From Mitsuokella jalaludinii DSM 13811 (GTDB lineage Bacteria > Bacillota > Negativicutes > Selenomonadales > Selenomonadaceae): 64,000 nucleotides of DNA. Below are positions 35,173 through 58,427 of the stretch, in pieces. Under the pieces are notes generated by a model. That model had not been told where the DNA came from, did no database searches, and saw nothing but the letters and a program-made list of their open reading frames with translations. Both the position numbers and the translations under genes were made by a program. Position 1 is the stretch's first letter, and every line of letters begins with the position of its first letter. The stretch spans positions 310,001 to 374,000 of the forward strand of contig NZ_JNKR01000001.1 in NCBI RefSeq assembly GCF_000702905.1, written 5' to 3'.

Positions 35173-35802
35173 TCACCAACGGCCAGGATAGATGCTCATC
35201 CCTGTCCCATCTGCCGAAGGACCTACATGGCCTGTGGTTTTAAAATAGGTCTTCCCATTTCCCTGGGGATCATAATTTCCTTCATCCACATAGATTGTGT
35301 GCGGATACTTAGAGTTTTTTTCTCCGTCCTTATTATAGTAGTACCCCGAATTTCTATTATAGGCAGCTTTCAGCTGATCGAAAGTCGTACCTTTATTATC
35401 CACAGCTGAATAATAAGTCACCACATAGTGACCATTGGGGTGAATCTTGACATACCAGCCATCCCCATCCTTTGTCTGGATATTGAGCTTCCTGGCTATT
35501 TCCCGTCCCTTCTCGCTGTCAGATGAGATTTCTATCTCCTGTCCCTTTTGCTGTGGATCTCCAAGTAAATCGGTCAATTTACCAAATCGTCCATCATGCA
35601 GCCTTTCTATAATCTCACTAGAAGACTGCGCAACGGACAGGCTTTCCTTCCCCAGAAGTTCTGCGGTCTGATTGAAAACAGAACGGATGGATTCCGCCAG
35701 CCCGCCTTGCCCATTGGAAGAATACAAACAAAGGCCTATGCCTGCCACCATGGCCAGTATCAGCGCATATTCAACGATTCCCTGTCCACTCTGCTTTTTC
35801 AT
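35173..35802 (-). CDS. orphan Flp/TadE-like pilin-like protein
   Basis: A 209-residue protein. The N-terminus KKQSGQGIVEYALILAMVAGIGLCLYSS is a short basic leader, a G-x-x-x-E-Y processing-like motif and a hydrophobic helix, as in Flp or TadE prepilins cleaved by a prepilin peptidase. Past the helix follow about 180 polar residues rich in Gly, Tyr, Asn and Lys, much longer than Flp. No secretion ATPase, peptidase or other pilin lies nearby. Its GC is clearly lower than the flanks, suggesting recent acquisition. The start ATG at 35800-35802 follows AAGGAAG. Confidence 0.65.
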   Translation of the reverse strand: MKKQSGQGIVEYALILAMVAGIGLCLYSSNGQGGLAESIRSVFNQTAELLGKESLSVAQSSSEIIERLHDGRFGKLTDLLGDPQQKGQEIEISSDSEKGREIARKLNIQTKDGDGWYVKIHPNGHYVVTYYSAVDNKGTTFDQLKAAYNRNSGYYYNKDGEKNSKYPHTIYVDEGNYDPQGNGKTYFKTTGHVGPSADGTGMSIYPGRW

Positions 35803-56487: not shown

Positions 56488-56871
56488 TCACTTCGCCTTC
56501 ACACTGCGGTTCGACTGGCGCCAGTGGCGAAAAAAAGCCACGCGCCCCAGGCGCGTCTGCCAGCCCAGCATCATGTGGCGCAAGGTCATCAGCGGGTGAT
56601 GGAGCAGCATGCGCGGGCCGCCGTAGCGCATGACGGCCTGGATCTCCTGGCGCCGCGCCGGTGCGTAGCAGTGCACGGGGCAGACGCTGCAGAAGCTCTT
56701 GACCGCCATGCGCGGGCAGGCGGCGATGCGCGCTTCTGCATAGCGGGCCAGGGATTCGCACTGCGGGCAGAGCCCTTCTCTCCTGCCATGATGAGCCCGG
56801 CAGTAGATCGCGATGATCTCCGCCACGGTCTCTTGCTCCTGCTGCCGCTTCTTCTCAACATCCATCTTCAA
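56488..56871 (-). CDS. YgbA-family (nitrous oxide-stimulated promoter) protein
   Basis: A 127-residue protein of the YgbA_NO family, with cysteines in CPQCESLARYAEARIAACP and FCSVCPVHCYAPARRQEI that may bind a metal or cluster. E. coli YgbA is induced by nitric oxide and helps recovery from nitrosative stress; the mechanism is unknown. The start TTG at 56869-56871 has GGGGG seven bases upstream, with an ATG two codons inside. Confidence 0.78.
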   Translation of the reverse strand: MKMDVEKKRQQEQETVAEIIAIYCRAHHGRREGLCPQCESLARYAEARIAACPRMAVKSFCSVCPVHCYAPARRQEIQAVMRYGGPRMLLHHPLMTLRHMMLGWQTRLGRVAFFRHWRQSNRSVKAK

Positions 56872-56946
56872 TGTCCATCCCCCGCTTTGCCAGTCGTCGC
56901 CTATCGTACTATCATCATATTCTGATGCAATCGTAACAAAAAAAGA

Positions 56947-56981
56947 GGAGCTACGCGGTGACTTTTGTTACGCGCAGCTCC
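56947..56981 (-). terminator. terminator downstream of brnQ
   Basis: An 11-bp stem GGAGCTACGCG (one mismatch) with a 13-nt loop, followed by TCTTTTTT on the minus strand. It lies about 120 bases past the brnQ stop, on the far side of the DnaA-box cluster. Confidence 0.78.
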
Positions 56982-56982
56982 C

Positions 56983-57056
56983 TGTGGATAAGTTGCCGAT
57001 TTCCGCACAACTTATCCACAGCTCACACAGCAATTATCCACGGAATTTGTGGATAA
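56983..57056. promoter_or_regulatory. cluster of four DnaA boxes
   Basis: Three exact TTATCCACA boxes (56983-56991 minus, 57012-57020 plus, 57048-57056 minus) and one TTATCCACG (57034-57042 plus) fall within 74 bases. The first two are part of a 14-bp inverted repeat CTGTGGATAAGTTG; the last two form a second, 8-bp one. There is no dnaA, dnaN or AT-rich unwinding region nearby, so it is more likely a DnaA-titration or reactivation site than the origin. Confidence 0.7.
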
Positions 57057-57101
57057 CTGCGAACCTGTCAAGGTCAGCCGTCCACTTTTCCAAGAAAAGC
57101 C

Positions 57102-58427
57102 TCACTCGGCCGGTCTTCTCTGGAAAAACGAGAGCACGAGGCCGATGGACGTGCCGCAAAGCGCCGGCACGACCCAGCCCATCGTCAGGCTGTAGAATGG
57201 CAGGTATGCCGTCAACAGCTGGTTGAGCAGATGGAAGTGGATGCCCGCGGCGTTGAGGCCGTCAATCAGGGCGAAAATCAGCGTGAGGTTCAGCGCCCAG
57301 CGGTAGACGCCCTTGCGCCAGCCAATCATGCGGTCGAACAGCGAGAGGATGACGAAGACGATGACGAGCGGGTAGATCGTCACGAGGAACGGCACAGCCA
57401 GCGCGATGATCTGCGTCAGGCCGACGTTCGAGACGGCGAAGCTGAAGAACGTGAAGAAGAGCAGCAGGCGCTCGTACGAGATGCGCTTCTTGAAGAGCTG
57501 GTTGAAGAACCAGGCGCCGCCTGAGAGCATGCCGCAGCTCGTCGTCAGGCAGGCCAGGATGATGATGGCCGCCAAGAGGCCGTTGCCCGCCGTGCTGAAG
57601 AAGATGCTGACGGCGCTCGCCAGCAGTTGGCCGCCGTTTGGCGAGTGGCCGAGCACCATCGTGCTCGTCGCGCCGAGATACGCGAGCGAGCCGTAGACGC
57701 AGGCCATCAGCGAAACCGTGATAAGGCCCGCAATCAGGCAGATGCGCCCGATGGCCCGGTTATCCGTCACGCCGCGCATGCGCACGGCATTGACGACGAG
57801 CGTGCCGATGGCCACTGAGGCCAAGAGGTCCATCGTCTGGTAGCCGTCCTGGAAGCCCTGCGTGAACGGCGCGTCGATGTAATTGCCCGTGGGCGGCAGG
57901 ATCGTGCCCAGCGGCGAGAGGAACGCCTTTGCAAACAGCACGGCCAGCACGACGAGCAGGACAGGCGTCAGCATCTTGCCGACGCGGTCGATGAGCTTGT
58001 TGGGATTCAGCGAGAGGTAGTACGAAGCGCCGAAGAACAGAGCCGTGTAGACAGCCTGCCCAATCTTCAGCGAATCCTCCTGCAGGAATGGGCGAATGCC
58101 AATCTCAAAAGAGACGGCACCCGTGCGCGGCACGGCGAAGACCGGGCCGATGCAGAGATAGAGCACAACGAGCAGCGCCGTCGCGAACCACGGGTACATC
58201 CTGCTGTTGATGAGTTCGAGGTAGCGGCCGCCCTGCAGCGCGATGGCGGTGATGCCCAGAAGCGGCAGGCCGACGCCCGTCGTCAGGAAGCCCAGCATCG
58301 CCAGTGGCGTGCTCGTGCCTGCTGCCTGCCCGAGTGCAGGCGGGAAGATCAGGTTGCCTGCACCGAAGAAGATGGAGAACATCATGAAGCCGATGGTGAG
58401 CAGTTCGCTCTTCTTGAATGAATTCAT
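57102..58427 (-). CDS. brnQ: branched-chain amino-acid:cation symporter
   Basis: A 441-residue LIVCS-family carrier with about twelve membrane helices. The N-terminal KKSELLTIGFMMFSIFFGAGNLIFPP is diagnostic for BrnQ. It imports Ile, Leu and Val with sodium. The 3' untranslated region holds the DnaA-box cluster and a terminator. Confidence 0.94.
   Translation of the reverse strand: MNSFKKSELLTIGFMMFSIFFGAGNLIFPPALGQAAGTSTPLAMLGFLTTGVGLPLLGITAIALQGGRYLELINSRMYPWFATALLVVLYLCIGPVFAVPRTGAVSFEIGIRPFLQEDSLKIGQAVYTALFFGASYYLSLNPNKLIDRVGKMLTPVLLVVLAVLFAKAFLSPLGTILPPTGNYIDAPFTQGFQDGYQTMDLLASVAIGTLVVNAVRMRGVTDNRAIGRICLIAGLITVSLMACVYGSLAYLGATSTMVLGHSPNGGQLLASAVSIFFSTAGNGLLAAIIILACLTTSCGMLSGGAWFFNQLFKKRISYERLLLFFTFFSFAVSNVGLTQIIALAVPFLVTIYPLVIVFVILSLFDRMIGWRKGVYRWALNLTLIFALIDGLNAAGIHFHLLNQLLTAYLPFYSLTMGWVVPALCGTSIGLVLSFFQRRPAE

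Follow-up and report, generated by a model that had tools for sequence, protein, structure and literature searches.

A single-copy array of DnaA boxes with a conserved layout in Mitsuokella and Selenomonas: a probable DnaA-handling locus outside oriC

The window is a stretch of 64,000 nucleotides of Mitsuokella jalaludinii DSM 13811 (Negativicutes, family Selenomonadaceae), corresponding to positions 310001-374000 of contig C1 in a genome (G000) of 2.41 Mb and 66 contigs. Near one end of it, brnQ and a YgbA_NO-family gene (ygbA) are separated by a non-coding gap that holds a compact array of boxes for DnaA, the initiator protein of chromosome replication. These boxes are named A to D, plus C', along the minus strand, i.e. 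in the direction of both flanking genes. The features of the locus, in window coordinates, are the following:

57102-58427, minus strand: brnQ, branched-chain amino acid transporter; upstream neighbour, replaced by another gene in many relatives
57048-57056, minus strand: DnaA box A, an exact TTATCCACA that faces box B head-to-head; starts 14 bp apart, 5-bp gap
57034-57042, plus strand: DnaA box B, TTATCCACG, one mismatch
57012-57020, plus strand: DnaA box C, exact TTATCCACA; strong half of a double DnaA box
57001-57009, plus strand: DnaA box C', TTCCGCACA, low-affinity; 2 bp from box C
56983-56991, minus strand: DnaA box D, exact TTATCCACA; 29 bp from box C
56983-57020, minus strand: composite core C-C'-D; matched once per genome by a pattern search in 19 of 189 Selenomonadaceae genomes
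about 56940-56981, minus strand: terminator-like hairpin with T run beside the element, from sequence and computed fold
56488-56871, minus strand: ygbA, YgbA_NO-family gene; downstream neighbour, not adjacent to the element in several relatives

The initial annotation, made from the window's sequence, had described three exact boxes and one single-mismatch box within 74 bases, arranged as two inverted pairs in an untranslated region downstream of brnQ. All four boxes are recovered, the inverted pairs are real (14-nt arms at 100%, 12-nt arms at 92%), and the cluster does sit between the brnQ stop (57102) and ygbA. The fifth and weak box, C', had been overlooked; it is kept in relatives. Start-to-start spacings in the window are 14 (A-B), 22 (B-C) and 29 (C-D), and the full array, read along the minus strand, is + 14 - 22 - 11 - 18 +. 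Box B is the least certain of the five. The hairpin and T run at 56940-56981 are probably the end of the brnQ transcript; this hairpin is absent from the output of a hairpin scan that was restricted to loops of 3-8.

The window holds four exact copies of TTATNCACA against 0.49 expected, and 0 of 100 shuffles reach four, which bears out the earlier statement that three exact 9-mers so close together are very unlikely to arise by chance. The fourth exact copy, at 35396, lies away from the cluster. A Poisson estimate, computed by hand from the shuffle-derived rate, gives about 8e-8 for three exact boxes within 74 bases anywhere in the window. When one mismatch is allowed, 19 boxes are found in the whole window against 18.3 expected; there is thus no window-wide excess at this level, and it is the clustering of exact boxes that stands out. 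Genome-wide, exact TTATNCACA occurs 66 times against 11 for the reversed pattern, and 35 of these 66 boxes fall in 11 clusters, oriC included (a cluster being two or more exact boxes within 200 bp, and bipartite oriC entering as a single cluster).

The ten further clusters, oriC among them (loci L009-L018), are located on contigs C1, C3, C4, C6, C12, C16, C21, C25, C30, and C32. In seven of the total of 11, to which the window's cluster belongs, those exact boxes that also occur in Mitsuokella multacida are identically spaced there; in one of the seven, on C16, each genome has an extra box of its own. A head-to-head pair (TTATACACA / TTATCCACA) stands just before the cell-division gene sepF (L010:4036-4060). 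The cluster on contig C4 includes a 29-bp inverted pair and separates a second YgbA-family gene from an Orn/Lys/Arg decarboxylase gene (L011:4034-4107), and the 29-bp pair beside this second gene is also found in genomes G001 and G002. Four exact boxes occur between an MscS channel gene and a short ORF that matches the end of anaerobic ribonucleotide reductase (L012:3904-4131); nrdD of E. coli is reported to be likewise bound by DnaA (PMC11317965). Boxes are also lined up next to a gene for a Rep3-type initiator (L013:3925-3978), which suggests that contig C12 may hold a plasmid or an integrated plasmid.

The dnaA gene is found on another contig, C30, with exact boxes both before it (445-476) and between it and the next gene (2047-2093). 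The element is therefore not oriC, as the initial annotation had held, and the oriC reading was rejected. GC skew, computed within the window only, is weak and uninformative, displaying no clear switch at the element, and carries no weight in this assessment. The distance to dnaA is measurable in two genomes, amounting to 371 kb on the single 2.83-Mb contig of G112 and 398 kb on a 3.00-Mb contig of G199 (ten contigs, 3.6 Mb in total); it is about 13% of the contig in both, two values that are not independent because the local gene order is common to both genomes. No YabA is detected in the M. jalaludinii genome at E 0.001. A second Bac_DnaA match, on contig C27, was not accepted as Hda, its ORF being read by eye as an IstB-type ATPase adjoining a transposase-like ORF. 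A large box cluster of another genus (L084, genome G106, genus g9) would, on a circular contig C1, be about 33 kb away from dnaA.

Conservation of the element was assessed from loci selected by their genes and by a pattern search. The brnQ of the window shares 93% identity with that of M. multacida DSM 20544. Among 48 brnQ loci (50 minus L065, partial, and L068, a distant homologue), seven carry the cluster just downstream, all with a C-D spacing of 29 and an A-C spacing of 36-37, and 41 have no such cluster. In L022, L023 and L047, the downstream sequence is shorter than 350 bp. A tie to ygbA was examined because a second ygbA-like gene adjoins another cluster, the one on contig C4 mentioned above. 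The set comprises 46 loci (30 + 16 genes of the window's subfamily), picked by gene and not by boxes, with no C-D spacing imposed. Eleven carry the cluster upstream, and these are all 11 loci of genera g1 (the window's genus) and g16; the C-D spacing is 29 in each, and 21 of their 22 strong boxes are exact. In the ygbA loci of other genera, the cluster is found in 0 of 35, and none of these has more than one exact box between -700 and +1000 relative to the start of the gene. The cluster is hence tied to the lineage and not to ygbA.

The composite pattern, made of strong box C, weak box C' and strong box D 29 bp from C, was searched in 189 genomes of the family, 99 of them with at least 90% completeness and at most 5% contamination. 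It matches 19 genomes, once each, and the reversed control gives 0 matches. By genus, exact matches are found in 3/3 genomes of g1, in 16/22 of g16, including six of the nine g16 genomes new to the search (G199-G207), and in 0/164 of the other genera, where matching was exact. Slightly degenerate copies are present in four more genomes: G205 has both strong boxes exact and a degenerate weak box, and in G104, G206 and G207 one of the strong boxes carries a single mismatch. The element is thus carried by 23 of the 25 genomes of g1 and g16, which are related genomes and not independent events. In G207, two more matches occur elsewhere (1 and 2 mismatches), and the one examined (L171) is devoid of A, B and C'. 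No core is found in G065 and G120, both of g16, even with up to two mismatches, so that the element is not indispensable. Presence in close relatives, to which the initial annotation had tied its proposal, is seen in the brnQ loci, in the ygbA loci and by pattern search, in two genera; among the family genomes searched by exact pattern, the element is confined to these two. Of 101 family genomes, 57 possess one or more inverted pairs of exact boxes whose gap is 0-30. Their spacing varies by genus, and 29 bp is that of g1 and g16 among the matches listed. At the two loci read in genus g21 (L086 and L087), the layout is comparable, but the boxes of the inverted pair are 38 and not 29 bp apart (+ 21 - 12 - 38 +).

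When 14 elements are aligned on C and D, 17 of the 18 columns of these two boxes are invariant, a figure that is largely built in, given that 13 of the 14 had been retrieved through exact matching to these very boxes and that the alignment allowed at most one mismatch. For this reason, the case rests on the loci chosen by gene. The C-D spacer exhibits 48% pairwise identity over the 14 genomes. The position of box A shows 0-1 mismatch in the 22 other element-carrying genomes (best of five offsets), and box B shows 0-2 mismatches in relatives, at 20-22 bp from C when the best of six offsets is taken. In the Selenomonas loci measured, the first spacing of the array is 16 instead of 14.

Box C' (TGTnnnnAA on the minus strand) is embedded in this spacer, with a 2-bp gap from C, and provides an example of a weak DnaA box made detectable by conservation. 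Its mean over the 14 genomes is 2.07 mismatches; of 300 combinations of offset and strand, only those of C and D score lower. Permuted spacers give a mean of 5.70 (sd 0.34) mismatches at this position, and 0 of 20000 are as low as 2.07, a figure that overstates the case because the genomes are related and the letters had been inspected before the test. C' and C lie on the same strand, 2 bp apart, one of them degenerate, as in the double DnaA box (two boxes on the same strand, 2 or 3 bp apart, one of which may be degenerate). In E. coli, DnaA is reported to prefer in vivo two boxes 2-3 bp apart, and 15 of 16 DnaA-bound regions to contain a close match to two such boxes, one being often degenerate; inserting a base greatly reduces binding, and removing one does not (Stringer et al. 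2024, PMC11317965). The window's sequence, TTCCGCACA-AC-TTATCCACA, follows this weak box-2 bp-exact box order; unlike the E. coli double box, it is embedded in a larger fixed array. Pairs of this kind recur in the M. jalaludinii genome, where 9 of the 11 clusters hold a 2-3-bp pair with at most two mismatches. Counting each pair from both ends, the same tolerance gives 14 pairs at gaps 2-3 versus 1 at gaps 4-10, although gaps of 0, 11 and 12 also account for 5, 4 and 2 pairs, respectively.

The genes around the element differ among its carriers, as shown by a survey of 24 loci of 22 genomes, with the genome's own locus read from the window. It is flanked by brnQ and ygbA in nine genomes, by narI and ygbA in three, by a 221-aa gene without Pfam match and asparaginase in three, and by this 221-aa gene and ygbA in one; in G099, ygbA and then asparaginase follow, with a different upstream side. 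In these 17 genomes, the identified neighbours are codirectional with the element. In five others (G017, G202, G203, G204 and G205), it is located between the 3' ends of two converging genes, on one side molybdopterin-type genes and on the other a Na+/H+ antiporter gene; Pfam was run for G017, G202 and one G204 gene, and the remainder were assigned by ORF length and DNA match to G017, in which a Uma2 gene adjoins the element among the molybdopterin-type genes. The G201 locus is truncated close to the end of its contig. An asparaginase gene occurs on the downstream side of 14 of the 24 loci, at distances from 83 bp to 9.2 kb, and likewise in the window, 6 kb away; its recurrence on that side points to one ancestral place.

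It is conceivable, although unlikely, that DnaA at this site controls transcription, either of the downstream gene (ygbA or asparaginase) or of brnQ, and so couples that gene to the replication cycle. In 17 of 23 carriers, a codirectional gene begins about 80-120 bp after the element, several Selenomonas have a further or last box 50-60 bp before ygbA, and E. coli DnaA is reported to regulate genes through double boxes (PMC11317965). Against this, the genes on both sides differ among carriers, the five convergent loci place the element between gene ends, and 35 of the 46 ygbA-subfamily genes, all in other genera, are devoid of such a cluster. A regulator of a single gene would not be expected to outlive its gene or to sit between gene ends, and the exchange of neighbours together with the convergent 3' ends argues against control of a neighbour and for a locus of its own. 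The site has kept its layout while the surrounding genes changed, as would probably befit a control site for chromosome copying and not a switch of its neighbours.

Control of DnaA outside oriC has been detailed for E. coli and partially described for B. subtilis. In E. coli, the DARS sequences promote ADP release from DnaA, in an IHF- and Fis-dependent manner for DARS2, and datA harbors an IHF site among its DnaA boxes and promotes IHF-dependent ATP hydrolysis. The initial annotation had compared the cluster to these datA- or DARS-type loci. The comparison stands in that the element is neither oriC nor a chance cluster and is kept in relatives; it fails on the geometry of the DARS core. The cores of E. 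coli K-12 DARS1 and DARS2, as measured here, are both + 14 - 12 -, and the E. coli DARS box positions used agree with the double boxes printed in PMC11317965. Like DARS1 and DARS2, the element is non-coding and holds a tandem strong-weak double box, and in Mitsuokella its head-to-head A-B pair has the same 5-bp gap. Like datA, it is a non-coding cluster with a double DnaA box; the arrangement of the boxes is different.

That the element is itself a DARS-type reactivating sequence, in which the head-to-head A-B pair drives ADP release, is slightly less probable still than transcriptional control. Boxes I and II of DARS (+ 14 -) find their equivalent in the A-B spacing of 14 in three genomes of the genus Mitsuokella, and the head-to-head arrangement is reported to be functionally essential in DARS (PMC10380432). 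The spacing is however 16 in the Selenomonas loci where B is seen, and no third box follows in tandem at 12 bp, the next one being at 22 bp in the window; for these two reasons, the element is not filed as a DARS. An extra box, D, is present at 29 bp, and constancy is greatest in C-C'-D rather than in A-B.

The inverted repeats might also act as RNA hairpins in the brnQ 3' untranslated region, in stability or termination, which is improbable. The minus strand of 56930-57110 does fold well (z -6.45, terminator-like hairpin included). Beyond the 9-mers, the 14-nt stem is nevertheless already broken in M. multacida, the loop contains the conserved box C' without a pairing partner, brnQ is adjacent in just 9 of the 23 carriers, and Rfam returns a single sub-threshold miRNA match (26 bits versus a gathering score of 44). 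A chance cluster, oriC or a mobile-repeat copy, for which no supporting observation was made, can be dismissed in view of the shuffles, which rule out the first, of dnaA and its boxes on C30 and of the single match to the core in each matching genome.

Among published loci, those that come nearest are the DnaA-box clusters that B. subtilis carries outside oriC; a strain without six of these clusters is reported to initiate early (PMC13220808). As in B. subtilis, several intergenic DnaA-box clusters are present per chromosome in a Bacillota genome, and the one described here combines several intergenic boxes away from oriC with conservation in related species, within two genera only. What sets it apart is a fixed layout, a single occurrence per genome in two genera, and a distance from dnaA of about 13% of the contig in the two genomes measured; the lack of a detected YabA in the M. 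jalaludinii genome is a further difference.

With a probability of roughly 0.72, region 56983-57056 is, judging from its sequence, a single-copy, non-coding DnaA-handling locus that tunes replication initiation and belongs with the B. subtilis DnaA-box clusters and E. coli datA and DARS as a class. This reading builds on the boxes, their spacing, the one copy per genome, the conservation in two genera, and the independence from neighbouring genes. DnaA would be expected to bind the element in vivo and thereby to affect initiation. A DnaA dimer may load on the double box C'-C, and further DnaA would then occupy D, A and B, yielding a compact DnaA complex away from oriC. The most likely job of such a complex would be to hold and/or convert DnaA, so that initiation is neither too early nor too frequent, much as the B. 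subtilis clusters hold initiation back; titration, ATP hydrolysis as in datA and ADP release as in DARS are candidate actions. More speculatively, the element might be a clade-specific DnaA control element with a fixed architecture of its own, combining a strong-weak double box, a box at 29 bp and a head-to-head pair, by which one step of the DnaA cycle is catalysed or timed in diderm Bacillota. Taken in full, this tentative idea would make it a functional counterpart of datA and DARS that arose separately and was kept while the neighbouring genes were exchanged.

A term search of a limited set of papers found none on DnaA boxes in the Mitsuokella/Selenomonas group, and none pairing the DnaA box with Selenomonas ruminantium. 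Being compact, recognisable by one pattern and carried by 23 of 25 genomes searched of this group, the element offers a precise experimental target in diderm Bacillota.
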